A stretch of 64,000 nucleotides of DNA, taken from contig JAHLKC010000024.1 of NCBI GenBank assembly GCA_025449115.1, forward strand, positions 186,001 through 250,000. The letters run 5' to 3'. The position numbers and the translations under genes are program-made. How positions within the stretch are numbered: the stretch's first letter is position 1; every line of letters starts with the position of its first letter. This stretch comes from Chytridium lagenaria. Its lineage: Eukaryota > Chytridiomycota > Chytridiomycetes > Chytridiales > Chytridiaceae. The notes under the pieces were generated by a model. The model was given only the letters and a program-made list of their open reading frames with translations, was not told the origin of the DNA and searched no databases. This document shows positions 4,883 through 63,819 of the stretch, piece after piece.

Positions 4883-5990
4883 ATGATTTCATTCTTTTTT
4901 TTTTTTCTTTTTTCTTTTTTTTTTTGGCGCGTCTCTTTTGTTGTTGTCTGTTACTTTTCAACGCGGTGCAGATCTTTACTCCCTTTTTTCAGTGACATGC
5001 GTGCGATTCTATCCTTTTTTTTTTTTTTTTTTACCACCCCTCATGCCCTTTCTATTTTTTTTTTTCTCTCGTTTTTTGGTAAAAAACCCATTTGATGTGT
5101 TTGTTTTTTTTTTTTTTTACGTACATACATACATTGTTTTCTGTGATTTGTGGAGTGGTAGATTATACTGCTGCAAGTACGTCTCAAAGAGTTGCTTTAG
5201 AATGTGGTGATGCGATTTCAAATGAAGATGTGGCGACATGGGTCGCTGTGAACATTATTTCATTGTGTTATCTGATACTCGTGGAAATGGGAACATCCAT
5301 CTTTAGCCAATATATTCAAGCCGTTAGATGCACCCAAACGTTTTTTCCCGCGAATGTAACGTCAGTGACGCTCTGGTATAGCATCAGAGGGGAAGGAGAT
5401 TAGGGATGGGGAACGGCGAGGCTGAGATGGTGATTAACGATATCTTTCGTGTCAGAAAGACATGTATAGATTGAACCCTTTAAAGGCCACGAGTTGTATT
5501 TTTTATGGTGTTTGTGTCGAAAAAGGAAAGGTGTGTCGTGTTTCTAATTCGATGAGCAACCTTTATAAGGAATGTTGAAATTGCTGGTTTCGCGACATTG
5601 TTAAAAAGACCTCGTTTCGTGAAAATCATAACGCGTCGACGTGCCGTTGACCTTTTTTTATATTAATGTTACCGGAATGAATTACAGCACTTTGTAAATG
5701 TTAAATTGGTTTCAACTTGAATAAAATGGGATATGTGATATTTAAAAAGTGATATTTTGACGTGTTTGATGTCAAAGACACAAAAGGTTCAAATGCAATG
5801 CTTGTGGCGGAACTGGGCTGTGGAGTGTGCACAACGACATTTTTGAACACTGCACACCTCTCCATGAATTCCATCATTGGGAACAGCACATAAGAACAAG
5901 AAGAGCAAGTCATTCCATAACCTCCCTCAGTATCAGCACCACAGAGCATTCCAATCTTCCTTAGTAACAGCATCACAGAGCATTCCAGCA
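4883..5990. other. T-rich 3' flank and intergenic region
   Basis: Roughly the first 240 bases after the pyruvate carboxylase stop are dominated by T runs of 8-18 bases, as expected of a 3' UTR or terminator region. From about 5130 to 5990 the composition is mixed. Short open frames exist on both strands but lack codon bias or recognisable motifs. No gene is supported here. Confidence 0.6.
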
Positions 5991-28256: not shown

Positions 28257-30775
28257 TTAACCTGTTTTCAAGGCCTTCAACTCTTTCAAGACCTCTAACC
28301 CCTCCATGCACATCTTTAAACATTCTTTTACTTCCCCAGTCTTCGCAACATCAATCGCTAACCTCCCGTCATTATCCCTCGCTTCCACCATCTCCTCTCC
28401 AATACACCCAACACCATCCGCACCCCTACCTACCCCATCCGAACCCCTACCCACCCTATCCGCAGCCCAACCCACCCCATCCATACCAACATTTCCATCA
28501 ACCCTCCCCCCCACTCCCTCCCCAAACCCACACAAAACCTTCACCACCTCCCTGGCGCCACTCCCAAACATCGACCTCGCCACAACATGCAAAGCAGTAC
28601 CCCCACTCCCATCTCTCAACCCCGCAACACCCCTCACCCCCAACAAATACCTCACCGCCTCCACATGCAACATCTCAGCGGCGCGATGCAGCGTCGTGAA
28701 TCCCGGTCGTGGAGGGATGAGACCCGCCGGATGGTGTGTGCAAGGAATCCAAGGGTCGGCACCGTACGCGAGGAACGTGTTGGGGATGTCCCCCGTGATA
28801 CCGTGGTATCCGACCATGATGTGGAAGGGTGTGGCGCCGTCGGGGGTTTGAGCGTTGAGGAGATTAGGGAGGGGGGTGATGTGGTTGAAGGCGTGGGTGA
28901 GGAGGTGGAGGGTGAGGGATGGGCGGGGTGGGGCGTTGTATCCGGATGCAGCGTGGAGGGGGTTTGTGGATGAACGGGGTTGGAGTAAAGGGTGAGGGGA
29001 TGTAGGGGGGATGTTGTTGAGGATGGTGGAGATGATGGAGGTGATTGTTTTGTCGGATGTTGAGGTTGTGTTTGCGCAGAGGAGGTGGAAGGGGGTGATG
29101 TGGTCTTTGTTTGGGGTTGAGAAGGCTTGGAGGAGGGTGGCGCGGGTGGACGGGGTTGGGGTTGGGGTGAGGAGTTGGGTGATGAGGTAGTGGAAGCCTT
29201 TGGGGGAGAGTGGGACGTGGGGGGAGCAGATGTGGTGGAGCCATGTGCCGTCGGTAGTAGAGTTGGTGGAAGGGGTTGTGGGGGGGAGTGGTTGGTCGCA
29301 CATGGTAAGGATGACGCGACGGCGGAGGGTGGGGATGGAGTCGAGGGATGTTGGGGAGTAGAGTTGATGGACAAGGACGGTGAGAAGGTATTCGGCAACG
29401 TCGGGATGACCTCGTGATAGGGCTCTTACAAGCGGCATGGAGAAGAATGTGACGGTGGATGAACCGTTTCCAATAAGGGTGAGGATGGACGCACCACGGT
29501 CAACTAGGGCTTTTACGATATCCAAAGCGCCGATCCCTGCTGCCCAACACAATGGTGATAACCCCGTCACGTCCCTCACATCCACGTCAGCTTTCCCAAC
29601 ATCAATCAAAAACTTGACAGTCTCTAACCTCGCTTCTGCGTCGTGGTCATCGGATTTTCGACCTGCGATGGCGAAATGCAGTGGCGCCCAACGCATGGAG
29701 CAGAAAGTGTTGGCGGCGTTGATGGAGATGCGGTTGGATGCGATGAGGACTTTGAGGATGTTTATGTGGGCGTGTTTGGAGGCGGTGCAGAAAGATACGT
29801 GGAGGTCGTGGTGAACGGAGGGAGATGGGGGGTCGGCGGCGGCGGTGGTGAGGAGGAGGGGGTCGATGGAGGAGGCGTTTGAGAAGAGATGAGGGAGAAG
29901 GAGGTGGACGAGGGGTGGGTGGTTATGGTGGGATGCACGAAGGAAGGCATTGCGGAGATCGAGAAGGTGGGTGGGGTTGGTGGTGACGGGGTTTGAGAAG
30001 AATTGGGAGATGAAGAGGGTTGCTGCTTCAAGACAACCGTGTTCGGCGACGAGTTGGAGGATGTTGCGAGGGGGTTGGATGTTGTGGTTGAGAAGGGATA
30101 GGATGAGGTTGGGATGGTTGAGGAGAGATGCGAGTAAAAAGGCGTCATCCCAAAATGCTTGAGGCCCAAAAGTTGGTAGACGGTGGGTTTTTTGAGTGTA
30201 TCTTGGAAGGAGATGAAGGAAATGGTGAAGGACTGTAAGAGTGTCTGGGACGTGGAGAAGGGTCATGAGAAGGCATGCTGATGGGCCTAGATTGTGAAGT
30301 TTTGGGGATGAGAGCGGAATTTTTGCACGTTGCTGGGCCTCTGCTGTGCCTGATGTGGCAGTGAAGGACGACGACGTTAAAGGAGTTAAGGCGACGGTCA
30401 AGTCCAGGGTGAGGCCAGCGAGGATAGAAGCGGGTACTTTTATGCTAGCTCCTTTGAAGGGCTGAGAGGCTGCGGTGGTGGTGGTGGTTCCTGACCATTG
30501 GCTTCGAATGGCGGCGCTTGCACCCAGGGGATAGAACGGAACGGCTATTCCCAATGCCTGCTGTTTGGTGATGGCGGGGCCGAGAAGCTTTGAGCAGCAG
30601 CTCTGCCTTGAGAAGTGGACATGCGTTCCAGTAAACAGAGCGAAGGTCCTTATTGCAGGGTGGTATACCTCGCAAGGTCTTGCACATTACTTGAAGCGAG
30701 CAGGAGGATATGTGACCACAAATCCAGTGTCAATGGTAAAGAGGATGAGTTCGTGTCCGTCATATGTTCCGTCAT
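28257..30775 (-). CDS. F-box and ankyrin-repeat protein
   Basis: A 765-residue uninterrupted minus-strand frame (30554-28257) shows ankyrin units, for example WAPLHFAIAGRKSDDHDAE with TVKFLIDVG, DVTGLSPLCWAAGIGALDIV, DGATPFHIMVGYHG, GFTTLHRAAEMLHVEAVRYLL and GGTALHVVARSMFG. Upstream, the frame 30859-30650 carries an F-box-like SSLPLTLDLWSHILLLA (ATG 30775 or 30763), and a third frame supplies CNKDLRSVYWNACPLLKAE. Two single-base slips near 30657 and 30585 would join these into one F-box/ankyrin protein of about 835 residues, the plan of SCF ubiquitin-ligase substrate receptors. The ankyrin part is certain; the F-box link is likely. No introns are seen, unusual in this window. Substrate unknown. 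Confidence 0.78.
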
Positions 30776-31394: not shown

Positions 31395-33396
31395 TTAGTT
31401 GCTGTTGAAGGGGTTGAGGAACATCCTGAAAGGCTGGGGTCCGATCCAGTTGCCCTTGACCATACGGTTCCAGTAACTATAATCAACGGTAAATTATGAG
31501 AATCACAATTTTCAATGAAAAGGGGGCGGGAAAAGTAAAAAATAAAAACAACTACAAAATATATATGAAAATACAGGGAATGGTAAAGGAAGCATCGATA
31601 TAAGGAAACTCACATGGAAGGGATAACATCAGAGGTAAGGTAGTAGAAGAAAGAGTTTTGCTTGCCCTGGTCAAGGAAGAAAGTCTAAAATCACATGCAA
31701 CCCAAAAGAGAAACAAGTGATTAGTTTTCGAATCTTTACCAACAAACAAAGAAAAAAAGAAGAAGAAAAAAACAACTTACCTCACGCGGCTTCAAGTCAT
31801 AGTCAAACTCTGCAAGGATAAGCTTTCCCTTGCCCGTGACAAGCGGACAACTCGTGTACCCATTATACTCTGCTCCACCCTCCCGTCCCTCCATAGCCGC
31901 AACAAGATTCCACACCAACACCCCAGACTGCGCCGCGGCCGCGGCCGCCGTCTTGGAAGTCGGCATACTCGATGCATCCCCAACCGCAAACACATTCGCG
32001 TACTTGACATGTCTCGTCGAAACCTTATCAACGCTCACCCATCCATCGGCGTTGGTCAAATCCTCACATTCTTTCAAAAACGATGGTGGACCCATGGGAG
32101 GGGTGACGTGCATGAAATCGTAATCGAGGGTGGTGGTTTCGCCGGTCGAGGTTTTCTTAAAAGTGGCTTTGCGGTTTTGACCGTCCACCGCAACTAGATC
32201 CGAGAGAAGGTTGACCGCAATGTCGCGTTCTTTGCAAATGTTGGTGAGTTCTGAGCCGTATTTGTCGACAGAAAAAATCTTGCCCATGCCGCTGTGGAAG
32301 GAAATGTCGGTTTTGGAGCGGATGTTGGACGCGCGAAATTGCTCTTCGGCAAGGTACATGATCTTTTGGGGAGCGCCGGCGCATTTGACGGGGGTGGCGG
32401 GTTGGGTGAAGATGGCTTTACCACCTTTAAAGTTGCGAATGTACTATGACAATATTTTGATAAGTATTTGATCCCTTCAAACGTAGCTTTTGTTTACTTT
32501 GTCGCCGAAAACTAACCTCAGCAGTCTTCTCGACATAATCCGCAGAGTAATTGGAGGAGACGCCGTCTTTTCCAAGCGCCTCCTTCAATCCAGGAATCTT
32601 GTCCCAGTTAATCTGAATTCCAGGGGCAACAACAAGGTAATCGTACTTGACAGCCTCTCCTGTCTCCGAAAGCACCAAGTTTTTGCTGGGAAGGATCTTA
32701 GAGACCTTTGTCTTGAGCCAATCTGTCTGATGTTTTTTAAGAGTGAGTCACGTTGGCTTCCAGCGGATTATGTAATTCAAGATAAAAATACCTTTCCAGG
32801 GATCAGAGATGACATGGGCCTTCCACTGTCCTTGAGGGTTTTGAGACCCCCACCAACGAAGGTCCTATTAGTTTAAGGATTGAAAAGTAGAGATGAGTCA
32901 GGTTATGTTGTCAGGAAGACCCAAGGGACACTCTGTAATAGCAAATGATGCTCAGGAGTCTGAAAGGCACTATCAAAAGTCCATGCCGTCAATAAAACCA
33001 CTATAGTAATCCATCACCCTATAGCCTCAACCACGTACAAAAAGTCCTCCAACCATCCCTAATATCTAGCCAAGCCCCCCACATCCCCGATATATCCCCT
33101 TTCCCCCCACCCCCCAACAAAACTCACCATAACGGCTGATAGTAATGCGTATCAGCGGGATCAATGACAAGCAACTGGTTTGACGAGCTTGCAGCAAACT
33201 CTGGTACTTTGCAAGCTGCGCGGCCACAGAGAGACCTGCGGAACCACCCCCTACGATCACGACCTTGTAGGATTTGGGAGGGTTTGACATTGGAGGTGGT
33301 GGCGAGGGTGCGTCTGAAGAGGGGAAATGCGGGGGTAGTGGTGGTGGTGGAAGCGCGCAAGATGCTGCGGCCTGTGAAGAGTGAGGATGGATGCAT
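31395..33396 (-). CDS. Mitochondrial sulfide:quinone oxidoreductase
   Basis: FAD enzyme that oxidises hydrogen sulfide and passes electrons to ubiquinone (SQOR/Hmt2 family, inner mitochondrial membrane). ATG 33396 opens a presequence rich in Arg, Ser, Thr (MHPSSLFTGRSILRAS, FRRTLATTS). The Rossmann motif VVIVGGGSAGLSVAAQ is near 33255; DPADTHYYQPLW is followed by an intron and TFVGGGLKTL. Active-site cysteine candidates are in VKCAGAPQKIMYL (near 32380) and SCPLV (near 31845). The second FAD motif is VFAVGDASSMPTSKTAAAA. The last exons give LDQGKQNSFFYYLTSD and IGPQPFRMFLNPFNSN, stopping at 31395. Introns of about 44-250 bases. Slips near 33285 (between presequence and domain) and 33210 are bridged by family conservation. 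Confidence 0.92.
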
Positions 33397-34472: not shown

Positions 34473-37400
34473 GTGAAGATGAAAATTGGGGAGCCTATGG
34501 AGGATGATGGTTGGGAGTTTAATTTTGGGGACGGAATGGGCATGGCGACAAGAGGGGAGAGCTTGACAACGGCGATAGCGTCGACATCAACTACTTCAAG
34601 TACGGTCTTCGCCCATATCGACTCTGAGGCCAATACAATCTTCCACTTTGACATCCACTCGCTTGAGTCCGACCTCATCCACCTGGACATCCTCAACGCT
34701 TCATCTATTACCTACAAGATCTTCCTCCCCAGTGACGTCAACGCGGGACGCTATTGGTGTGCTCCCTGTCGAGGCCACTCAAGTACCGTCAAGCACAATT
34801 CAAACGCTGTCGAGTTCTTTTGTCACGATGATTCGATCTTGTTGCCGTTGCAGTCAACAGATGCCGCCACGTCATTAAGAATGAGTACCACTGCATCCGT
34901 AACAAATAGGTAACCTCAATAACAGCCGGTGTAGGAAGAACATCAGCAACATCATTGCCCACATCCACACGTCTTGTAACGACGATAGGAGGGACGGTTG
35001 GAGCTACATTCTCGAGATTGAACGATATCACAGTCCACCCCTGCCACTTCACAAACAGCGACCCGGCGAACGGAAGCAAGTACTTCAGCAGTTGTTTCGT
35101 TTCCTCCAAACTCTACCGTCTGGACTTCATCTACCATGTCAACGCGTCCCGCCATGTCAACTACAACCATAGACTCTTCCGCTCCGCGAACCATCTCAAC
35201 TCAAACTCATTTCTCGTCGCTACTCACCAAAACCTCAATCTCACCGTCATCTACCGTAAACATCCCAATAATGTCGATTTCAGAACCTATTCCCATCCTG
35301 ACGACTACATCACCGCCACCAACCTCCACCCTCCGCACTGACCACACACCACTCCCTCTCGCAACCCTCACCAAAATTGACATGATATTTCCTTACTTCC
35401 CAGTCTCTCCAAACCCATCTCCAACACATGCATTTTCCTCACCCTCACTCCCCCGTTTCCCAAACTCCACTACGCTTCACTCAACATCTCGGACCCATCT
35501 CCTCGCCATCACAACCTTCCCCTTCCCGTACCAACTTCTCGCAACGATCCTCACCTTCATATCTCTTATCGAGACTCTCCTCACGCTTCTCTCTTTCCTT
35601 CATTGTCTCCGTCGCGCCGCATCCCACCTTCGCTCTCCATCCTATCTCGCCCCCATCATCTCCCTCGTGTTCCTCGCAGTGAGGTCGCTGTTCTTTCCGC
35701 TCTTTTGGGTAAATCTAACATGGATACCTGGATTTGCGGTACCAGAGTGGGGAGTCGTGGGGGTTTGGAGATGGTTTGGGTTCGCGTTTTGGACAACAAT
35801 TACGGTATATATGGTCTTGCTCTTAGCACCTATTGGTGGGGTTGTTTGGAATGTGGCTAGAGCAAAGAACGGAGTCGAGGAAGCTGGAGTCGTCGGTGGA
35901 ATAGTCAGTGGAATAGTTGGCGGAGCCGGGGCGGCTGGTGGTGGCGACGAGAAAGCTAAAGATGTTATTGTGATTATCCCAGTGTATAACGAGCTTCCTG
36001 AGGTAAGATGTGATTCCGAATTCTGTTGCTGCTTGCCACGCTGGTGTTTTTTATCATCTTAACGCCAATGAATAGATTCTCCTTCAAACCGTCATATCCG
36101 TGGTGGAATCTCGGTATCCGAAGCCAAGCTCCATATCCTTCTCGCAATGGATGATCCCACAGAGTCACCGCTCTACCTCCAGACCCGTAAAAATCTTGAC
36201 CCAAAAAACAAAGCGATACGAACGCCACGGATAGAAAGCGCCGAGTCATTTGGTCATCCTGTTTCGATTGTATTTAGGGAAGTGGATGTTACGATTTGTA
36301 GGTTTGCCCATGGAGGAAAAAGACACACGCAGGTTTGTTCAAGTTTAAATCTTTCCAACCAGGCATACTAATACCTTACAATTCAAGTCTAAAGCTTTTG
36401 AACTCGTCGACCATCTTTGCGTAGCCTCTCGACCCTTTTCAACTGCATCCATCACCTCCACTTCCTCCGATCTCTCCACAGCTTTTGACCCATACATACT
36501 TTTCATCGACTCCGACATCATCCTTGAATCTCTCGCTATTCTCAATATGACAGCAGATATGACGAAGCATCGGAGAGCTGCTGTCACGGGACTTGTGCTA
36601 TGCTCCAACCCTGTGTTTAACTTTTGGTGGATTTTCCAGGATTTAGAGTATGTTCAGGGACAGCTTATGGAACGACAGCTGGAAAGCTTATGTGGGGGGG
36701 TAACTTGTTTACCAGGTAAGTTCAAATTTTAGTGGAAATGATTGTCATCTAACGATATTTGCATTTAAATTAGGCGCTCTTACCATGATCCGTCTCGATA
36801 TTCTGCGCTGCGTCGCCCCCTATTACTTCCAGAGCCCTGAATTCCCTTCAAAATCTTCCACAGAGCCACAAAAAAATTCCGATGACATCCGTGCACCATC
36901 CAACTCATGGCGTCGTAAAGGCTCCATCGGTCCTGCCAATGCCCTTGCTCCACCTCCACCCCCTGCAAAAGGCATGGATATGTTCACGTACGCTATGCTG
37001 CATCTTGGAGAGGACAGGTACCTCACAAGGTTATTGTTGGAGGGTGAGGAGGAGGGTGGCGAAAAGGGACTTGAAGCGGGGAGGTGGGGAGGGTGGGGAG
37101 GGTCATTTTCCGTGGCTTTTGTTGATGAAGCTGTGTGTCGGACAGTTGCGCCGGATTCAGCGGAGGTGTTTTTAAAGCAGAGAAGAAGATGGTTTTTGGG
37201 TAAGCGACTTTTTTGATATAGGAATCGATTTGACGATTATATTAGGGACTATGGCAAACCGAGGCATGTATTCTATGTTCGCCCAAGATGTGGAAAAATG
37301 TAAGTACATTCTTTATGACTTAATCCTTTTTACTAATCTAGAATTACATTGATAGTATCCACTTCTTACTTTCCTCCGTCTCCTTACCACATCACTTCAC

Positions 37401-39055: not shown

Positions 39056-41622
39056 ATGATGCTGGGTTGGGCATCTTCCTCAACCACACCCTACTTCTCT
39101 GATACCAACACCATGCGCAAAGACTCTGTCCACATCCTCAACTCACTAGTTAATCTCACACCGTCCTCTTCGTCTTCAGCGTTGAACGCAGGAAGAATGT
39201 CAACAGCTCCTGTAAATGATGGTGCGGTAGTGAGGATCAAGGTTGCTACGTCTAAACGGTCGATGGTTGTGGTTGTGAAGGGGGATGCGACTGTGTCGGA
39301 TTTCTTGGATGTGGTGTCTTCCAAGATCATAAGAGGATTTCCTATTGGGAGTGTGGTGGGTTTTATCAGAAGATGCCAAATGATATGCGTACTCATCAGT
39401 GTTTTTAGGTGCTGAACCCGCAACCAGTCGTAGCCGCCATGTCGAGGGATGGGTTTTTTTTTGACGAAGACGATTTGGTGAGTTTTTCACCATTCCCGCC
39501 TTTACTACTGATGTACCTTCCGTCTCAATCTTATACTGATGACTAACCGCATTTCAGGTCCGTTACGCCTTTGACACAGATACAGAAGTCTACGCTTTCA
39601 CCAACGACGAGCTTCGCAAAGTCCTTCGCACCCAGCTCGATCCTTCTTCTCACGTCTCACCCTTCCTTCAGGTCCCCGACCAACCCCAAACCGCTCCGAC
39701 TCCACCCCCACAGCGCTCTTCCCTCCTCCTCTCCTCATCATCCTCAGCCCTTCCATCCCCATCTGTCGACCAAGAGGATGACCACCCAAATCCACATAAG
39801 CTTCGTGATCACCTTCGTGTGGGTCCATCAAGACGAGGATCGCTGATAGGAGCTGTCACAATGAATCATGATGCGGTTGATCCGGGGTTGGTGAGTTTGG
39901 GGGGTGCGCCAATTTTACCGGCGGTTGGGAGTAAACCATTAGTTTTTGTCTCCTTTACACGGCTGAATTCGGCAAGGATGGTGGGAGTCGATAAAGCTGT
40001 TGGGACCTGTGATCCTCACGTGAGTTTCTTCTTCCAACTGTTGAAATTATTTTCTTTTCTGTTATTTCCAGCCCACATATTTTATACGTCAAAAAACTGA
40101 CTGATTTTTGCGTGCAGTGGATTTACAAGGGATTAAAGGAAGCCGGGTTTAGCGTCTTTATTGACGAAAGCGAACGCGAAGCTGGGGAACCGCTTTCTGA
40201 GGAGCTCGTCGATATGATGTTAAAAGGTAATTCAGCCTAGTATCCTGTTTCCCTAACCATTTTCTTTTAAGCCACCCACTTCGTCACTTGTATATCCCGC
40301 GAATACGCCGAATCCCCACTTTGCGAAGCCGAATTCAAGTTTTCCCGATTTAAAAAGCGTTTCATCGCGCTTGTCGGCACAAATCCCCATCCGTCCACTA
40401 AACTCCCACATCGACGCGCTTCAGGAGTGTGGGGACCAACTGCTCGCGTCATACCGGCGTCTGAAGGATCTGCGGCGTCGTATGTGTCAGGCACCGCTGT
40501 GGGCCATATGATTGGAGGCGGGGATACGGCGTGCATTGATTTTAGGGTAGACAGTGGACGGGCACTTGAGGGGCTTGTGGCTGCCTTAAGGGGGGATACG
40601 GAAGTTGTGGGACACGATGCGGTAAAAGCTGTTGAAAGTATTGTTGGAGCGAGCGGGGTTGCAAAACGTGCTGTCAGAGTATTAACAGAGATGGCTGTGA
40701 ACATGGCGAAAAAGGGTGGGAAGGAAGATGTTTTCTCTGTTCTTGGCTATGATGATGTCGAGGAGGCAGTTGTGAAGGAGGTTGTGGTGGATGGACCGAC
40801 ACCACGAAGGGGACGAGTGTACGTAGCGTATTGTTGGGATAACAGCGTGAGCGCCATGAAGAGCATGGGACAACTTGTTGGAGGTGGAGCGGGTGTTTGT
40901 GACCCAAGAAGGGTTGCAGCAAAGCTTGGGGCGGCTGGGTTTGAGGTTTGGATGGATGTGAGAAGACGTGATGTGAGGAGGATTGCGCGAGGGGAAAGGA
41001 GGGTTGAGAGATTGAAGAGGCGATTGGAGGAACGACGGGGGGTCGTGGAGGAGGTTGGACACGAAGATGATGATGCTGATACAGAGAAAGATAGGGACGA
41101 AACTTTGGAGGATTCTCCAACTTCACCCTCGGATGTATCGTTGTCAGAAAGTGATTCGGATGATGAGGAACTGGCGGATGCGTTGACGTTAGGGATGGAT
41201 CATGCGGATTGTATGATTGCGTTCATTTCTGATGAATTCGCCTCATCCCCCAACTCTCACGGGAATTCCATTTCGCCCATAATGTCCTCCGATTACCCCT
41301 TATTCCCGTCGTCGTTGGAGTCGGTGTCGGCAACATTTGGCGAACCGGACCCCTAGGAAAGGCCGTTCGTGGGTACGTCAGTCTTGATGCCACGGTGCAA
41401 GATGTGGATTTGGATCAGCTGCTTTGTATGGTCTACAAGGTCGTGGGGGCGTCGCCTGCTCCTGAGGGACCTAGACGAGAGGTTGGGGTGGTCGAGGACC
41501 TACAGGGCCCTGTATCACCGCCTGCTTCAACTGCGTCCTCGATGTCGTTTGCAGGATTTGGTGGGAGGGTTGGGCCGCCGTTGGCGGATGGGATGAGGAT
41601 GTCGCCAACACCGTCAAACTGA
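39056..41622 (+). CDS. PB1-like/TIR/TIR protein, candidate NAD-cleaving signalling protein
   Basis: Exons 39056-39355, 39409-39477, 39558-40019, 40118-40226, 40272-41622, all phase-consistent. Domains: a PB1-like module (VVRIKVATSKRSMVVVV, then FFFDEDDLVRYAFDTDTEVY and FTNDELRKVL); a Pro/Ser-rich linker; TIR1 (KPLVFVSFTRLNSA, CDPHWIYKGLKEAGFSVFID, THFVTCISREYAESPLCEAEF); a helical linker; TIR2 (GRVYVAYCWDNS, CDPRRVAAKLGAAGFEVWMD, HADCMIAFISDEFASSPN, then FHFAHNVLRLPLIPVVV). One base is missing near 41250 inside TIR2; the frame resumes with SREFHF and stops at 41622. Both domains keep a Glu where TIR NADases have the catalytic one (CEAEF and SREF). TIR2 carries a roughly 60-residue charged insert (40980-41170) rich in Asp, Glu and Ser. 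TIR identity is from motif order; NADase activity and partners are inference. Confidence 0.78.
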
Positions 41623-43221
41623 TCCACTCTTACTAGATTTTATTTCTACATTTTGTTACGTTTATCTTTCTTGTTCTTTTTTTGCTTCGTCATTCGGACA
41701 TTTTTTAAAGGCACGTTAATGGAAGAATAACCTTTTCCCCGTCCTTGCTTTTATCTCTCTTGCATACGCTTGTTTTAAACACATAATATTAAATACATAG
41801 ACAGGTGCTGAAATGACAATTACAAAAGCACACTGCTTTCAGACAAAAGTTGTCCGAACAATATTTTGTTTTCAGAATGAACACGTCACCTGTCGCGTCA
41901 ATGCCACGAGTATACCCTTCATCCTGTTTCCCTTCATGCCGTCAATCACAACCAAAAGATTCGGCTGAATTCACGTCGTATCATCCATGCAATCAATGTT
42001 CACACAGTATAAAACGAGTGCTTTGATCGTTGACCACAGAAACTTACATCACCCATCAACCGCACTTCATATACAGTTCTTCCTCCTTACCTCCCAATCC
42101 ACTAAACTCGCATGCCGTTATGTACGATTCCATCCCACATCGACTAAAATTGGATTCATTTGCGTGATTGGCAACATATTGGAAGGATAGCGATCCGCTT
42201 TTAGAATGCCGGCCATCGACAGGCTCTTTCACTCTATCAGCCATTCTGATCCATTTTGTTGCCATCCAATTCCACTGCCGCAGTAAACATGCTCGCGAGC
42301 TCCACCAAAAAGTGTCCTCGACCGCGGCAATCTTTCAAAGGCATCATGGGTTTTGCAAATCCTCTCACTTAAGTAGCGAGGATTAATCGGTATGTCTCAA
42401 TGGCCTTTCTTTTCTTGCACCCGGCCATTATGACCCAAAATTAACGGTAACTTCTCGCAGATGACCTACCTTCATATTCAAGTGCAGCGACTGACGTTTT
42501 GTGCACGTAGAGCCTTTAGATCAGGTCTCCCGTCGAGCACAATCTACAACACATTTATTCTGGTGAGTCATATTATAGGACTTTCTTGCTGAATATCCAT
42601 ACACTATCTGACACTCATCGTAGTTCTCTTCCATATCTCTTGAATTGCAGTTAGTATGGCATCGTTCAACTTTTTTATCTTTAAAAGACACGAACTCATG
42701 TTGGCGACTAAGTTGAATGCTCATCAAAGCACTGGTTTCCTTTTACTTTCTGCTGTGGGGAGTACTTTTCTCAAAGGTATGCATCCTTGTTGTCAAAGAA
42801 CCATATATGTTTAATTGGATGCTTCACATGATTTTACAGCTACATATTCCCCTCCTGCCTTGCATGGTTCAACCGGACATAGACAACATACAAATGTAGG
42901 TTGTTGAGCTTTCCATACAAGGAAAAGTACATCATTGACTCATTTATTCTCTAAAAAGCATCGGCATCGTCTTTTTTTGCCATCCTCCGAGTCTTCCCCA
43001 TGAATTAAACCTCTCGGCAATCCCGATGCATGCTACTTCACTGATTATCCCATCCTGGACGACGGGAGCCTGCGTTAAAACCATATTGAATTAGCATCTG
43101 GGAAGGCAGCGACGACAAGCTTAACCTTCGACTTTACTACCTCCTCTCTTCTTTCCTTCCTCTCTCCATTTTTGTCTTTAACCTTTATTCGCACGCAAGT
43201 TCCGCTCCTTGGGAAGTGAGG

Positions 43222-43229
43222 TATTTATA
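43222..43229 (+). promoter_or_regulatory. TATA-like element
   Basis: The + strand reads TATTTATA within gtatttatag, followed about 25-50 bases later by pyrimidine-rich sequence that could hold the transcription start of the acidic FHA gene. The proposed ATG is about 490 bases downstream, so the leader would be long or contain an intron. Weak evidence. Confidence 0.25.
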
Positions 43230-43502
43230 GAGCCCCCTTTCAGGGTCCCTTTTCTTCCTTTTTCTTCTTTGTCGTTCTGTTTTGCAAGAAATCGTCAGAA
43301 ACGACGGTATAATAAAGACGCGGAGTTCTTTCGATTTTGACCATCGTAAAGAAATGACTCAATCTGGCTGGTGGCGGAAAATGCATGAATATCCTCATGT
43401 CGGAGTTGATTTATTTGTTAAGGGGATTAGCAAAAAAAAGCGTCAATTGCGTATTGCAAGGGGTGCTCACTTGGAAAGAATCAAATGCTTGTCTTCGGTT
43501 GA

Positions 43503-43588
43503 ATATCTCAGCGGAGGGAAGGGCAATTAAAATTAAAAAAAGGCATATCTCAGCGGAAGGAAGGGCAATTAAAATATAAAAAAAAGGC
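43503..43588. repeat. 42-bp direct tandem repeat, two copies
   Basis: The unit beginning atatctcagcgg and continuing with aagggcaattaaaat and an A run plus ggc occurs at 43503-43544 and again from 43545, differing by a few bases and A-run length. It sits in the probable leader of the acidic FHA gene. Confidence 0.85.
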
Positions 43589-43714
43589 AGGAGGAGGAAA
43601 GAACGGGCAGAAGTAGATTTTACTGGACTTTTCCCATTACACCCTTTAGAACAACATAGCACTCTTGCCTTGGGATCACCTCCTCTGGAGAAGGTATCTC
43701 AGGGAGATATAGCT

Positions 43715-46700
43715 ATGATGTTGCGACAGGAGGATCCTCCGGACAAGCAACAGCCCACGACGAACTCTGGAGCTCCTAATCAACGTCCTCTTTTAAACCC
43801 TACCTCGACCAAAGCGAAAAACACCACCATTTCTCACTCCAACCGCAGCACAATGGATTCTATTCGTCATAGCGCTGCCAAGACTGCTACTAAGACTGCT
43901 ACCTCAATACCTTGCGGGTTTGGAAGCAGTTCTAGCAGATTCCCAACTTTGGGTGAAAGCTCGACGGATAGGAGTTCGAACTACGCTACAGCGGACATTG
44001 GGAGATAAGAGCTTGAGGCATGAAATGGTAGGCGTCATCTCATCTTATTCCTTTTCCAATGCAGACCAACTCACGGTTTTTTGATGATTTTACAGGTTTC
44101 GCATTCAACCGCAGCAGTATCGGACATCCGTTCTGGAAGGCATTCAGCGCAAGCAAAGTCAAGCTCTGTGACCACCTTCATTCCTCGCTCCATTCCTCGT
44201 AAAACTGCTCATTCTACGATCTCGAGTACAGCTGGAAACGGCCGCGTTTTTGGCAAGACATCCCCCAGCAAGATTCTCGGTCCAAGAACGGAAAGAACGA
44301 GTCCTATTAAGAAAGCGTCCAAAAGGACTGTTTTCAGCCAAAACAGGATGCCAGTGATCGCTGCTTCGCAAAAACGTCGAGGTTTACCGCTTGAAAGCAT
44401 CATCATAGCACACTTCGAATATTATTAAGACTGAGAGCGTTACTGGTACCGCGAAGAACGTTGTCGGAAACTTGAAAAAGGGAGGCGACAAATTGGTAAG
44501 CTGTTTTATCTTTTCGCATGTGTATGCGCATCAATGCGTGTTTATTTTTGCTTCAACCCAAACTGACGATATTTGTATCTTTCAATAGTTTACGCCAACG
44601 CTTACGGAAGTTGCGGTTATGTCTAGTTCACGAAAAGCCACGCTCAAGCCTTTCGCACTCAAACCCACCTTGAAGACGGGTACCTCGGCTATCTCGAATA
44701 CTACCAGCAAAACGAATGTTTTGGAAAAGCTCCTCGCAGGCTTGAGATGGTGGATGCGGGCAAGCCGAGTGTCTCGATTTTTGGTACCCGAAGGAGTAAC
44801 ACTTGGCCCGTTGCGAAGACATCCGCACAAGTCCTTACTCATCCGGCGAAGAAGGTTGAGCCAGAACGTGGTACGAGAAGTCTCCGAGCGATGCTGTCTC
44901 TACGAAGTACTCTCCTCCTGTGCAGGTTTTGGAGGATATGGTCCCCGCAACCAATACTTTGTCTCAACCTATTGAAGTAGATGTTCTCATGGAGGACTGT
45001 CAAATTGCCGAGGCAGCTTCTAGTACATTGGGTTTGGACATAATTGTTATGGTAAGAGTGATATTTGTTTTATTATGGCCATATGTATTCTTGGATGGTG
45101 ACTAAGCCTTATCTTTTATCTCAACAAATCCAATAGCACCCATGCGGTCAAATTGATCCAACGCAAGAGGTTGGCAGCTTGTCCGCTACATTGGTCGGTG
45201 CAAGCCGTCCCATCTTCAGTACCCCCAGTTTGGTCAAGGCTGACCGCGCACCTTCACATGAACTCACTGCTGATGACGCGTCAGCGGCTTGTGAAGGCAA
45301 TTGTCCGAGTGCAATGGTTTCGTATGACGCATTTGCCTTTGCCCCCTCCACCCCTAATGCACAAGCTCTGGGGTGCTTCCAAACTCTGGCTACCGCGGCA
45401 AATTCAACTGGTGTTGAACCCATCGTCTCACTCTCACGCACCGTCAGTCCTATTTGAACAAAGAACCATTGGTAAGCACATTTGTTCACTTTTTGCTTAA
45501 ATTGTCGATTGTCTTTCACTAATATACATTGTTACATTCAGAAGGCTACCTCGTTTAGTGAAGAGAAATGCGCGGAAACCTTTTTTAAAGGTCTCTCCAG
45601 CGCCACGCTGGGGAACCAGACCCCAGAGATTTCTTCTTTCGTCATTTTCGAGACTCCCAACGGTGCATCTGGTTCTGCCTCGTCTACCCCACCTTCTCAG
45701 GCTCAGGATGCTCATCAAGCCTGAGTTTGGACGTGGATTCAGCCAGTGTTGAACCCATCGAGTCCGACCACTTTTCCGTTGAGAGACGCTGTCCTCCATC
45801 TGACGCGGCAGGACATTCTCCCACACTCCCTCGCCCTTCCTCTGAGATGATTCACCCCACATCCGCTCCTGCTTGTTCTTCTGCCGTCAATTCAGTTCCG
45901 CTTCAAATTGTTGAAAAGAACTTTGTTGATCAAGCGAGGCTACAAGATGCTTTGACAAACGTTATTGAGACGCTTTACAGGGCCAATTCTGGGCCTGTTA
46001 CGAGTCTCTTGAAAACCTTCTGCAGCGAAGTTCATAAGCTGATGCGGATGAGAATCGATGAGATGGAGGATGGTTACCTTGCGGACGACGAAGCTAGCAG
46101 CCCCACCGGCGAGGATGTCCGTGTCCACACCAACGCCAACGACAAAGATCATGGCGCGGAAGTGGCGGACGCTAATGGTGATGAGGATGCAGATATGGCG
46201 GAGGATGACGCTGTTGAAGATGAAAAGATGGATGATCCTCCTCTTGAAGTCGTTGCTGATGAGAATCCTGGTGATGCAGAGGACGCTGGTGAAGAGGTTG
46301 AGGAGAAGAATGCGGATGAAGAAGGTGCGGTAGATCATGTTGTTGAAGAGGTGGAAGAAGTTGACAATGAAGCAGCGGGAGTCGATGAAATTGAAAGAGA
46401 GGCTCCGGAGGGGGAAGCAGAGAGGTTGATGACGCCGAGGAAGAGGAGAGGGAAGTTGTAGAGGGTGCTATGGGAGTTGATGTTGAGAGGGAGGATGAAG
46501 AAGGTTTGGAGGAAGGTGCTGTGAATGTTGAGGTCGTTGGTGACGAAGACGTTGTCATGAACGACGCTGATGACGTAGAGGACGAGGAAGATGTCGTGGA
46601 GGAAGGCGGTGCGGAAAATCAGGCCGCAGAAATCCGTGACAACGCCTCTGACGACGAGGAAGTTGAAGACAACGAGGTTGAAGGGGCGGTGGATGAAGAT

Positions 46701-49700
46701 GCTGTGGGAGAGGAAGATGTTGTTTTGTTGACCACGAAGAAGACGAGGAAGACGAGGACTACGAGGAAGAACATGTGGAGGAAGGTGGGGTGGAAGAAGG
46801 GGACGTTGATAACGATGTCTCTGAAGACGAGGAAGACTGGGAAGAAGATGTGGAGGAAGGCGGGGCGGGTGATGAAGTTGCCGAAAATAGGAGCGACGTT
46901 TCTGAAGACGACGAGGGGGAGGCAGTGGCGGATGATGATGCTGTGGGAGAGGAAGAAGAAGTCGTGGTTGGAGGGGCGGCGGATATTGATGTTGTAGGAG
47001 AGGAGGATGATGTTTCTGAAGACGAAGAAGACGAGGAAGACGAGGAAGAACCTTTGGAGGAAAATTGGGTCCAGGAAGAGAACGTTGCTGATGACGTCTC
47101 TGAAGACTTAGACGAAGAAGTCTGGGAAGAAGATGTGGAGGAAGGCGGGGCGGACCAATGGGCCGCTGGAGAGATGGGCGCCTTTAACAACATCATTGAA
47201 CGCGAGGAAGGCGAGCAAATAGACGTTGGGCTTCTTGGATTTAATGCAGATGACGCGATGGTTGATATTGTCAATAACTATGTCGAACACCCCCCGGTTC
47301 CTTACCTCGGGGTCATGGATATCGACAATGTGGAGGGGGGACAAGAACGTCAGGCCAACGACAGGCTTAATGACGAAGACATGGCCTCAAGGGCATCCGA
47401 CTCTGAGGATTCAGATGCGTCGAGCATAGACTTGAACGTATATGCTGCGGATCCTGAGGCTGAAGCTTTCCAAAATGTGGAGCACGACCAAGCCAACGTC
47501 GCTCACGTTTTCGCTGGCCTGGGTGACGACGCTCGACTTATCAACGCCGAGTGCCGTTGCCTGCTGCTAATTTGGCTTTAATGTAAGTTTTATTCGTCGT
47601 TCATTGTAAAAGTTTTTCGCTAACTTAAAACTTTTAGGCTTGAGTTAAGGCCATTAAATGGTGGCTTTGAAAAGAAAATGTTGGACTTATCGCATCCCAT
47701 CAAAATTGGACGAAAAGTTGCCGGTGGTGTTGACCCACAACCGAACAACGGTATCTTTGACTCAAAAGTATTGAGTCAAAAGCACGCCAAGATATGGTGC
47801 GAAGGAAATCAGGTGGAGTATTTGACTTTTTTGACTATTATTTATACCCTTTACTTCATAGGTTCTCATCAAAGACCTCGACTCTTCCAATGGGACGGTC
47901 GTCAATGACTATCCGTTGGTTGCAGGAGAAGTTTTTGAGCTCGAGGACGGATGACATTATCGAGTTTGGAGTTGATCTGGACTTTGACGGAGGTATATTT
48001 GGCACAATCTTATATTTAATACTAACGTTGATTCCATAGGTGAATACAGTAAGGTGTCCTGCTCTGCAAGAATTTTGGGAGCACCTGATGTGACGTTTGT
48101 CGATAAACCGCCAAGTTGGAGATGGGGAGGCTTCTGGGCAGAGGGAAATGCCTGTGCTTGAGCCTCAGGTAGAGGGAGGGACGAGTTCTCGTGAAACAAC
48201 CGGGCTTCTCTGGGGAGGTGTTGAGGGGCAGCATGAGTATGACGATGCCTGTAGGATTGGCTTCCCTAGGTGCGCCATCGAGTATTCCTGTTGGGGTCGA
48301 CGAGGGACAGAGATATGCGGGGCCTTTTGACATTGCATCTCTGCGCCTCCCCAGCTGGAGCGAGCAGCTGGACCGTGCTGCGGTCCTCTTCGCCCAAATC
48401 CGACGATTCCGACTGAATTTATCCACCTCCCTGCTAGCTTGATGGAACAAGAACGTCAGGCCAACAACAGGCTTAATGACGAAGATATGGCCTCAAGGGC
48501 ATCCCGAAACGAGGATTCAGATGCGTCGAGCATAGACTTGAACGTGTACGCTGCGGATCCTGAGGCTGAAGCTTTCCAAAATGTGGAGCAAGACCAAGAC
48601 AACGTCGTTCACGTTTATGCTGGCCTGGGTGACGACGCTCGACTTATCAACGCCGAGGTGCCGTTGCCTTTTTGTGGCGACAACAGAAATGCACTTGAAG
48701 TCATTTGCGAGAGGCCTTTATTAAATGGGCCTGCTGCTAAGTTGTACGCTGCGGATCATGAGGCTGAAGCTCTCCAAAAATGTGGAGCAAGACCACGCCA
48801 ACGTCGTTCACGTTTTCGCTGGCCTGGGTGACGACGCTCGCTTATCAACGCCGAGGTACCGTTGCCTTTTTATGGCGACGTTAACAGAAATGCACCTGAC
48901 GTCATTGGCGAGAGTTCTTTAAACGGGCCTGCTGCTAAGTTGGCTTTAATGTAAGTTTCGTTTAATCGTTCATTATGATATTTTTTTTTCTAACTTTAGA
49001 CATTTTAGGCTTGAATTAAGGCCGTTAAATGGTGGCTTTGAAAAGAAAATGTTGGACTTATCGCATCCCATCAAAATCGGACGAAAAGTTGCTGGTGGTG
49101 TTGACCTCAACCGAACAACGGTATCTTTGACTCAAAAGTATTGAGTCAAAAGCACGCCAAGATATGGTGCGAAGGAAATCAGGTGGAGTGTTTGGACTTT
49201 TTTTGACTATTATTTATACCCTTTACATCATAGGTTCTCATCAAAGACCTCGACTCTTCCAATGGAACGGTCGTCAATGACTATCCGTTGGTTGCAGGAG
49301 AAGTTTTTGAGCTTGAAACGGATGACATTATCGAGTTTGGTATTGATCTGACTTTGACGGAGGTATGTATGGCTCATCTTATATTTAACACTAACGTTAA
49401 TTCCATAGTTGAATACAGTAAGGTGTCCTGCTTTGCAAGAATTTTGGAAACACCTGATGTGACGTTTGTCAATAAACCCATCAAGTTGGAGATGGCGGAG
49501 GCTTCTGGGCAGAGGGAAATGCTGTGTTTGAGCCTCAGGTAGAGGGAGGGACGAGTTCTCGTGAACAACCGGCTTCTCTGGGGAGTGCTGAGGGGCAGCA
49601 TGAGTGTGACGATGCCAGTAGAATTGGCTTCCCTATGTGCGCCATCGAGTATTCCTGTTGAGGTCGACGAGGGACAGAGATATGCGGGGCCTTCTTGGCA

Positions 49701-50625
49701 TTGCATCTCTGCGCCTCCCCAGCTGGAGCGAGCAGTTGGACCGTACTGGCGGTCCTCTTCGCCCAAATCCGACGATTCCGACTGAATTTATCAACCTCGC
49801 TGCTAGCTTGGTGGACGACTTCAATACTGCAAGAGAGTGTAACGACTTTACCCAGGGTCCCGCCGACCAGATGATAGAGCCTGTATTGGAAGATGAGGTT
49901 GCTGATAAGCGAGTTGGTAATGGTGGAGGTGCTGTTGAGCTTCCTGCTTGCAGTTTCAAGAACCATAATCGCCATCTACTGTCGTCGACCACGTTCGCAG
50001 CGATCCTATCGTTGAAGCTGTACGAAATTACGTATCAGTCCGTCCTTTGGAAGTTGGTGTTGAGCTTTCAGCTAATGTTGGTGACTCCCAAGCTTCAGCG
50101 ACGCCTATTTCTGTCAGTATCAAAAGCAAGGGTCCGTTGCCAGACACCTTTGCAAGCAGTAACACTAGACAAAATTCAGTCTCGCCATCTGCGGATTCGG
50201 GCATTGAGAGTATGGCCGTATCAACCTCTGTTTCTCCAACACCCGTTGATAATGGGGGTGGTACTTCTTCAAAGGGTTCCACTGCAATTATCTGTGAAGT
50301 GGCGGTCGCCCCTCTTGATGGTATCATCAAGAAGGTTGCACCCTCGGAGATCGTTCCTCTCGATCAGCCAAATCTCCCAGCATTGCTGGTCCCTTCTGAA
50401 ATGCCCATTGTCACTGTCTTTCCGGCGCGACCGTTGAAGGCTATCCGTCGTCAGCCAGCTATTCCACCCGCGCGGGTCCGTCCATTCTTCCCCTTACGAG
50501 ATATTCCTTATGTCTCTCCTGTTAGGGCGAAGAAGAGGAAGTGCGAGGATGATTTTGACCTGCTTGTACTGGATGAGATGTCGCCGAAGCGGCAACGCAC
50601 GGAACTGGAGTTGGTTATGGGGTGA
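43715..50625 (+). CDS. Large acidic nuclear protein with duplicated FHA domain
   Basis: Multi-exon gene not recognised as a named protein. N-terminal exons (43715-45720) are Ser/Thr/Lys-rich (PIKKASKRTVFSQNR, SSSRKATLKPFALKPTLKTG). Next is EKNFVDQARLQDALTNVIETL with a helical stretch, then about 1.1 kb of Glu/Asp/Val repeats (46050-47170). Two FHA domains follow, FHA1 at 47638-48060 and FHA2 at 49009-49440. Each has LRPLNGGFEKKMLDL, IKIGRKVAGG, SKVLSQKHAKIWCEGN, an intron, then LIKDLDSSNGTVVNDYPLV, so the GR, SxxH and NG phosphopeptide-binding residues are present. The sequence type resembles the SLMAP/Far10 FHA. The C-terminus carries basic nuclear-signal-like RAKKRKCEDD and SPKRQRTE and stops at 50625. 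Frame slips are frequent (near 43990, 44430, 44740, 46455, 46760, 47950, 49110, 49795). Gene boundaries could differ; the N-terminal block may be a separate gene. Confidence 0.6.
46597..47160 (+). repeat. Acidic coding repeats (VEEGGA units)
   Basis: Within the acidic tract the coding segment for (D/V)VEEGGA recurs at about 46597, 46848 and 47133, spaced 251 and 285 bases, each followed by a short polar stretch. GCTGTGGGAGAGGAAG recurs at about 46704 and 46941. This is an imperfect tandem repeat of an approximately 250-base unit. Confidence 0.65.
47338..49812 (+). repeat. Tandem segmental duplication of an acidic-FHA-tail module
   Basis: Unit A (about 47338-48437) and unit B (about 48444-49812) each contain an acidic segment (LNDEDMASRAS, SSIDLNVYAADPEAEAF), an intron, an FHA domain with an internal intron, and a Gly/Ser-rich tail. 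The FHA parts are offset by 1371 bases and nearly identical in exons, while the introns have diverged more. Unit B has an extra internal duplication: the acidic segment is repeated partially at about 48742-48840, with a CGACxxNAGAAATGCAC stretch in both sub-copies that is deleted from unit A. Confidence 0.88.
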
Positions 50626-50774
50626 AACGACGGGAGCGCGATGAAGATGATGAAGAGTGGGGAGGGGATAGGAAGCGGCATTGTGGGGAGTGATGAGTTT
50701 TTGTTCTTGGAGGTTTTTTTGTTTTTTTTTTTTTTTTTTTTTATATTATGTTTGGGTTTTTTTTCTTTTTTGTT

Positions 50775-51008
50775 TTAATTTATTACTTTCCATTGTTTTC
50801 CTAAGGATTTTGGAGATGGAAGAGAACATTGCTCTGTGAATGTTTGTTGTTGTTTTTAGTGTTTTTGTTATTTCTATTTATTGTTTCCATTTTTTTCCGT
50901 GGTTCTGAATGGGAGATGGAAATGCTATGTTGTTTTTTGTTTGTTTTTGTTTTTATATTTATTCTTTCCATTGTTTTTCCCTTGGTACTGATGGGAGATG
51001 GAAAAAGG
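50775..51008. repeat. Three imperfect copies of a T-rich unit
   Basis: A module reading attta-ttNctttccattgtttt followed about 15-20 bases later by ggagatggaa occurs three times (about 50779-50822, 50875-50922, 50957-51005), separated by T-rich sequence. Periods are about 96 and 83 bases. Directly visible, diverged. Confidence 0.65.
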
Positions 51009-52810
51009 CACCGCGATGCGAGTGCGTGTTGTATATATATATGTATATTTATGATGTTGTTATTGCTGTTTGATTGTTTTACTTTTTACAGTGTTGGCCT
51101 TTACATGGTCAATATAAACGATAGACGGTGTGAAAAATGAGAAAGACAAAAACAACGTTTGCTTTAGCCTTTTGTCTATTCTTGGTTGTCCTTTGGTATG
51201 TACATTTTTAAGTTGAGTATGAAAAAGTCTTGTTTTCTCTTTTTGTTTTCCCGGTTCTCCAAAACTATGCATCGAGGTAGACGATTCACATTGTGTTCCA
51301 GTAGCTGCTTTTGCTACCGTGTTTTATTGGGGTTTTGAAAGGCCTATTTCTCCTGTTTCGGCTCATCTCACGAATAAACTCTTACCCCTTATCCGTTAAA
51401 CAGAGGGACATACTTTAGCGCCGTTTTTATAAACCACAGCTCTCATGGTTTAGACGGAAGGTTGGGAGAGGGGGCGTATACGCGTATGTATATCATGTTG
51501 AAGGATAATGTCACTTTAACGCTTCCACGCGATGTGTCGTTGTTATCGCGACGCGTCAGCGCGTTTTTATATTCGTGTTTCATCGCCTTTTCTATTTCCC
51601 TTGTTATTCCACGTTCTTTGTCGTGGGATAGTTCCGCGGAATACGCTTGAATGGGCTGACTAACCTTCTGTTTGTCTGTTTTACAGTAGGTTGCTTTCCT
51701 TAGTTCACATGTTTTGGGGGCATGGTTATTAGTTTGGGAGGTTTGATTACATGTTTTTTAGTAGTTGGTTTATGGGGATTTATGGATGGGTGGCGTTTTC
51801 GTATGACAGGACGTTTTTTTGTTGTTGTAAAAGTTACTCGATGTTACCAAATAAAAGGAAGACCAAGAGAAAGAAAAGAAACTAACTCAAAAGCAATTAT
51901 TTGGGTGAGGTCTCTTACAGCTCCTGGGAGCATGTTGCCCGTCGTGAATTCATTCTCTTCATGCTTTTGTGTAAAAAAGGGGAGTTCAACATATCACCTT
52001 CAGAGGTTTATCTTGATTTTGGGTATCCCGTTCCTCTCAAGTCCAATTCATGGCAAGATTCGTGTTTAGAAGATTACCCTTTCCAGACACGCCCTTTGAC
52101 ATTTTTTCGTTTTACTTTTTTGCGCGTAACGAAATGATGAAGTGGTTTTCCACCCCTTAAAAACCATCCCATCCTTATTGGACTATCATATCAAATTTGA
52201 AATACTTTTTTTTTCGTAGCTTTGGAGAATGGACGATACATTGGGCGCGGTTTCATGTTCTCTTTTGCGTTGCCCGTGTTCCTTGTTTGTCTCTTGAAAT
52301 CAGCTTTAGTTTTGATTTATGACGTTTCATTATGCAAATGACTTTATAGGTATCCATCATCGTTATATAATAGGAGTGGTTTGCGTTGGGTCGTGTGCGC
52401 GGCCTTATCATTGAGCGTCCCCTACGTACTGGCCGCCTTACCGGTTCATGCGCTTGAGGGCGGGGATTTCTCGATTATCGACGTCTTTATGTTTTGCTTC
52501 GATTTACCACGTCCTTTTCTTTATTGGTTAAAGTGATTCAGAGCCGTTTCGGTGAGGTTTCAGTGGAAATTGAAGTACGCGGAGGGCATGGACAGCTCCG
52601 AAAGTTTCATCGATCCACCCATAACAAGAGAATGATTTGCCGCCGTGAACTGGTGGATGATTTGATCAAATTGTACCATTGCAACAAGCAAAGATGCTTT
52701 ATAGACTTAACACTGTTTTTGCAGACATAACACTTTTGCATACCACGTCTGATCGAGATTCCTTTAGTGGGCTGAACGTTAATAGAGATAGGGTACTGGG
52801 AACGATTTTC

Positions 52811-61754: not shown

Positions 61755-63819
<2,065 letters not shown>

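Follow-up and report, generated by a model that had tools for sequence, protein, structure and literature searches.

We analyzed a stretch of 64,000 nucleotides from the chytrid Chytridium lagenaria (contig JAHLKC010000024.1, positions 186,001 to 250,000, hereafter the window). On its forward strand, at 39056..41622, lies a real gene, spliced from five exons, which encodes a beta-grasp-like N-terminal domain followed by two TIR domains in tandem, TIR1 and TIR2. The tools we used gave its exon structure, its domain order, the homology of the two domains to TIR, a conserved glutamate in each of them, and a pattern of conservation shared with six proteins of other chytrids. The explanation that we favor, and to which we give an even chance, is that the protein is a regulated TIR enzyme like SARM1, in which TIR1 would consume nicotinamide adenine dinucleotide (NAD), TIR2 would act as a diverged partner, and the beta-grasp domain or the linkers would provide the input. 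An earlier sequence-only reading of this locus proposed a self-assembling fungal NADase with a PB1-like module: the tandem TIR domains, the glutamate in each, and the rarity of such proteins in fungi have stood, but the PB1 identity found no support in profile searches.

The exons are located at 39056..39355, 39409..39477, 39558..40019, 40118..40226, and 40272..41622. The first contains the start, a low-complexity leader, and the first part of the N-terminal domain, the second contains the middle of this domain, and the third its end, a variable linker, and TIR1 from the first strand to the CDP motif. The fourth covers helix A, strand B, the BB-loop region, and helix B of TIR1 (elements placed with a weak structural model of the relative P0001), and the fifth the remainder of TIR1, a linker, TIR2, and the C-terminal tail. 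All four introns are of the GT...AG type (53, 80, 98, and 45 bases, with phases 0, 0, 0, and 1), and the relatives read straight through every exon junction when the proteins are compared, which confirms the five phase-consistent exons of the sequence-only reading. The spliced product has 674 residues and ends at an in-frame stop (41354-41356) inside TIR2, past a break of the frame at ~41250 in exon 5; the other frame stops at 41620-41622.

Three protein searches identified six relatives, all named hypothetical and all from Chytridiomycetes: Phlyctochytrium planicorne (P0001), P. bullatum, Irineochytrium annulatum, Blyttiomyces sp., Zopfochytrium polystomum, and Cladochytrium tenue. In two of these searches the word-based step scored the best 7998 and 7984 candidates, and absence elsewhere is not implied. 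One protein was found per species, and the order of the N-terminal domain, TIR1, and TIR2, which the earlier reading had proposed to seek among chytrids, is present in 6/6. The N-terminal domain as the sole query retrieved the same six proteins and no others among proteins of 0.55 to 1.75 times the query length. Short pieces of TIR1 are missing in P0005 and P0006, which probably reflects faults in the gene models, and P0003 has a metallophosphatase domain behind the TIR domains. Beyond eukaryotes, scans of genome contigs and viral contigs with the family alignment confirmed 0 of 199 and 0 of 60 pattern stretches, respectively, and a search of plasmids gave a single TIR at E 0.3; both approaches have a limited reach in distance.

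The mean pairwise identity is 74% in the N-terminal domain, 75% in the core of TIR1, 50% at its end, and 71% and 81% in the front parts of TIR2 (21 pairs each). The remainder of TIR2 averages 66% over 15 pairs, the window being omitted owing to the frame break. The leader, the linkers, the TIR2 insert, and the tail have 22-24% identity, and an insert in TIR1, alignable in no more than 3 pairs, has 49%. Two short motifs stand out at the ends of the protein. At the very start (39056-39073), the window protein and five relatives keep an LxW motif, P0006 being partial, while the residues that follow it drift. Directly after TIR2, a PEGPRR motif (41458-41478) is invariant in the six relatives within a tail that otherwise drifts, and is a possible binding motif.

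The two TIR domains were assigned with Pfam. The window protein matches TIR_2 (PF13676, E 1.9e-16) and TIR (PF01582, E 1.8e-5), both above the curated cut-off, and in five relatives TIR_2 passes its cut-off in all five and TIR in four. When TIR2 alone was excised from four of the six relatives, all four pieces exceeded the cut-off of TIR_2. These results uphold the earlier claim of two TIR domains with common landmarks. TIR1 (39933..40594) contains introns 3 and 4, and intron 3 separates the CDP motif from its helix (codons within 40008-40129). TIR2 (40805..41478, ending in the PEGPRR motif) has an acidic, low-complexity insert after strand B, at the place expected for the BB loop, which drifts at 22% identity. 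Both domains follow the layout [SA][FY]...NS...GxCDP...L..AG[FL].[VC][FW].D...S.E[YF]...EF, and 22 columns are invariant when six TIR1 sequences are aligned with one of TIR2 (the row of the latter shortened by hand). Judged from their sequences, TIR1 is a predicted canonical TIR domain and TIR2 a predicted diverged one. In a model of P0001 (predicted local distance difference test, or pLDDT, of 40.6), the succession of strands and helices agrees with a flavodoxin-like fold for TIR1 and for the greater part of TIR2, and TIR1 aligns with TIR structures, but flavodoxin-like folds that are not TIRs reach comparable scores. Searches with this model using Foldseek gave plant TIR domains as best matches, with a best E of 2.6e-3 and none at E <= 0.001.

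The glutamate of TIR1 (codon 40331..40333, residue 334 of the spliced protein) shares its profile column with Glu 86 of Roq1 and is present in 7/7 members of the family. That of TIR2 (codon 41263..41265, immediately downstream of the frame break and read in the open reading frame (ORF) 41236-41622) is present in 6/6 relatives. Both residues lie in the helix C region, and the expectation of a glutamate in each domain is confirmed. The best-ranking matches of the family profile include Cat1 and Roq1, which are NAD-cleaving TIRs. In its core sequence features TIR1 matches an enzymatic TIR, with the exception of an upstream tryptophan that we consider below.

How these parts may work together can be outlined as follows. 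Either the beta-grasp domain or the variable linkers would receive a signal, the molecules would then assemble through their TIR domains, and the glutamate of TIR1 would cleave NAD+ or produce a messenger of the ADP-ribose type. TIR2, with an acidic insert in place of the BB-loop region, would hold TIR1 off or complete the active site within the same chain. As for the purpose in the cell, the protein may be a conserved stress switch like SARM1 rather than a variable immune receptor, because it is conserved and was found once per species, and rather than an allorecognition system, because of this conservation and of the lack of a recognized receptor module. A more specific version of this proposal is tentative: the protein would be a fungal counterpart of SARM1 in which the ubiquitin-like domain gates an intramolecular pair of TIR domains, TIR1 cleaves NAD+ at a composite site closed by TIR2, and the whole serves as a switch for cell death or dormancy in zoosporic fungi.

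A tryptophan four residues before the glutamate is common in active TIRs, albeit not strictly defining. In this family the position is occupied by leucine or methionine in TIR1 and by glutamine, leucine, or arginine in TIR2, never by tryptophan, which weighs against an enzyme and is in line with a different role. Both TIR domains could merely bind other TIR proteins, such as those encoded on another contig of this genome (C36), and form a non-enzymatic scaffold or adaptor, as in the signaling of TLR and MyD88. The other TIR genes in the genome provide potential partners, the family profile also finds TLR2 (E 0.004), and a drifting insert occupies the place of the BB loop in TIR2. Furthermore, the glutamate alone is not diagnostic, being kept in over 70% of TIRs (PMC7075850). 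However, both glutamates are invariant in the relatives while the linkers fall to 22-24% identity, and the top of the profile ranking holds Cat1 and Roq1. We regard a scaffold as somewhat unlikely.

The sequence-only reading had also raised the possibility of non-self recognition or antiviral defense, in which the TIR activity would kill the cell once a virus or foreign cytoplasm is recognized. TIR, and in fungi the TIR-related HET, serve in immunity and cell death (PMC10197012), and most of the NCBIfam and PADLOC models matching TIR1 represent antiphage proteins. Yet Pfam scans of the window protein and five relatives gave no match at E <= 5 to NACHT, NB-ARC, repeat, ARM, SAM, or HET (PF06985) families, leaving no sensor domain among these six proteins. 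The cores of the domains are conserved, a single protein was found per species, and there is no defense gene among the four ORFs named by Pfam in the 20 window ORFs that were scanned. An executioner of this type is improbable, and the pattern resembles a conserved regulator more than a recognition gene that evolves rapidly.

The N-terminal domain (39227..39650, encoded by exons 1 to 3) was predicted to be PB1-like, a prediction that the profile searches did not support. PB1 (PF00564) matches none of the seven family members at E <= 10 and none of the six proteins scanned with Pfam. Instead, OTU1_UBXL (PF21403) matches five of the seven, with a best E of 0.00066 and a score of 16 bits in member 1 against a cut-off of 22.7 bits, and YukD, likewise ubiquitin-like, matches one of the seven. 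A model of the domain (pLDDT 59.8) has strands and helices in the order of ubiquitin, plus a last helix. Its matches in Foldseek include RA, UBL, PB1, and CIDE chains, all weak (E 0.12 or worse), which fail to discriminate between PB1 and RA or UBL; when only residues 1-52 of the model are used, chains of leucyl-tRNA synthetase rank level with ubiquitin-like ones. A PB1 domain is defined by an acidic OPCA motif or a basic lysine in strand 1. In the chytrid domain R-D-G is invariant, strand 1 is basic, and there is a cluster of acidic residues, in a spacing that also fits other ubiquitin-like domains. Taken together, the profiles and the model suggest a beta-grasp-like domain that is ubiquitin-like in the broad sense only; a self-association like that of PB1 is possible. 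The profile of this domain had 22 matches in the PDB, none better than E 0.14 and all to TAL effectors (TAL effector, Hax3, dHax3), a short resemblance of repeats that we took as chance.

The frame break falls inside TIR2. In the sequence as given, the homologous frame changes near 41250, so the slip noted in the sequence-only reading is present, and all six relatives, as annotated, are continuous at this site. An intron does not explain it: there is no AG between 41192 and 41318, and any GT-AG intron spanning the break would have to take out the conserved sequence in which it lies. One may ask if the locus is a pseudogene that decays in C. lagenaria while its relatives have intact genes, an option compatible with any of the other readings. 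Besides the break itself, this would be consistent with the state of a sister copy that covers the 3' half, inverted and on the same contig outside the window (C24:180743-182083). This copy begins inside exon 4, without the first half, and carries several lesions of the frame, one of them not far downstream of the break site. On the other hand, the copy is in frame at the exact site of the break, the 674-codon frame is open apart from the break, and the other frame past it (ORF 41236-41622) is open for 128 codons, 80% identical to residues 769-909 of P0001.

The copy is part of an inverted duplication of ~11 kb with arms 44 kb apart, the right one at 40164..51165 of the window and the left one outside it at C24:170578-182085. 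The arms contain repeats; their main pieces are 96.6 and 97.3% identical and the repeat-rich pieces less so. Over 7003 aligned columns there are 57 substitutions and 42 gap events between the arms. Most gaps (31) are one base long, 21 are in single-base runs, and 31 are in the outside copy, a pattern that suits errors of long reads, even if half of the gaps lie outside runs. The duplication could be real or an artefact of assembly. For the break, we consider a slip of sequencing or assembly likelier than a real lesion, and a pseudogene very improbable.

We then compared the chytrid protein with known systems. The NAD+ hydrolase SARM1 and its Caenorhabditis elegans homolog TIR-1 differ from it in that the chytrid protein has a beta-grasp domain instead of ARM or SAM matches, two TIR domains per chain, and no recognized sensor of NAD or nicotinamide mononucleotide. 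Plant TIR proteins with nucleotide-binding and leucine-rich repeat (LRR) domains (TIR-NLRs such as RUN1, Roq1, and RPS4/RRS1) include its best fold matches and near-best profile matches, with the glutamates of TIR1 and Roq1 aligned, but the chytrid protein lacks NB-ARC or LRR matches, has its TIR domains in tandem, and carries an insertion with the CDP motif between strand A and helix A. The similarity to the bacterial defense proteins (Cat1, ThcB4 of Thoeris, TIR models of PADLOC) extends over the TIR core and is far below the curated cut-off (with ThcB4, P0004 scores 27.3 bits against 220), and the chytrid gene is spliced and eukaryotic. TirE of Dictyostelium is likewise eukaryotic and has two diverged tandem TIRs, as described in a recent atlas (PMC13142454); it differs by having RCC1 repeats in place of the beta-grasp domain, a comparison made by description and not by sequence. 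Finally, the fungal HET domain is a distant relative of TIR and brings about cell death (PMC4986451, PMC10197012), whereas the six chytrid proteins pass the cut-off of TIR_2 and leave PF06985 unmatched.

Reports of true TIR domains in fungi are very scarce. The 2026 atlas of eukaryotic TIRs, a preprint, places fungal ones solely in Rhizoclosmatium globosum, in a database poor in fungi, and states that the STIR clan of InterPro had no fungal TIR at that date and that it omitted a very small number of fungal TIRs already reported (PMC13142454). A survey of 2010 had no protein with PF01582 in its fungi (PMC2939053). A paper of 2022 mentions TIR among the NLRs of Chytridiomycota and, in Pezizomycotina, effectors that are TIR-like (PMC9815663), and another found no NLRs in chytrids (PMC4986451). 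The rarity of TIR proteins in fungi assumed by the sequence-only reading therefore seems correct, with one species in an atlas that sampled few fungi (PMC13142454). No fungal beta-grasp-TIR-TIR protein was evident from titles or starts of abstracts among the papers listed in the literature searched, which mostly excludes subscription papers, and within it this architecture looks unreported. A family of this type, with both catalytic-type glutamates kept in six chytrids and a member in C. lagenaria, would fill a gap between the TIR systems of bacteria, plants, and animals and would make NAD-based cell death in fungi directly testable. Two unlike TIR domains in one chain would also be a natural test of how pairs of TIRs build active sites.

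The genome of C. lagenaria has other TIR genes. A search with PF13676 gave three places on contig C36 (L001, L016 at 3919-5786, and L017 at 3753-5610), and one with PF01582 gave none at E <= 0.1. Since the former missed the locus at 39056-41622, where the frame of exon 5 alone scores 34.3 bits with PF13676, the count is a lower bound. Two of the C36 places are ~9 kb apart and each has Sel1 repeats just downstream (3e-51 and 4.2e-20); they are apparently TIR-Sel1 paralogs.

The Rfam (gathering threshold) and ARAGORN scans of the window gave no match. The neighbors were scanned with Pfam in 20 of the 61 long ORFs of the window, and a cluster of defense or NAD metabolism was rejected, as the four named ORFs correspond to ankyrin, pyridine nucleotide-disulphide oxidoreductase, chitin synthase, and cytidylyltransferase. 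The first is a large open frame with ankyrin repeats on the reverse strand (28260-30686, Ank_2 6.1e-26). The others are pieces of ordinary neighboring genes: the oxidoreductase (31739-32443, reverse strand) is closest to sulfide:quinone oxidoreductase, the chitin synthase lies at 36704-37213 on the forward strand, and the cytidylyltransferase (62298-62972, forward strand) is closest to ethanolamine-phosphate cytidylyltransferase.
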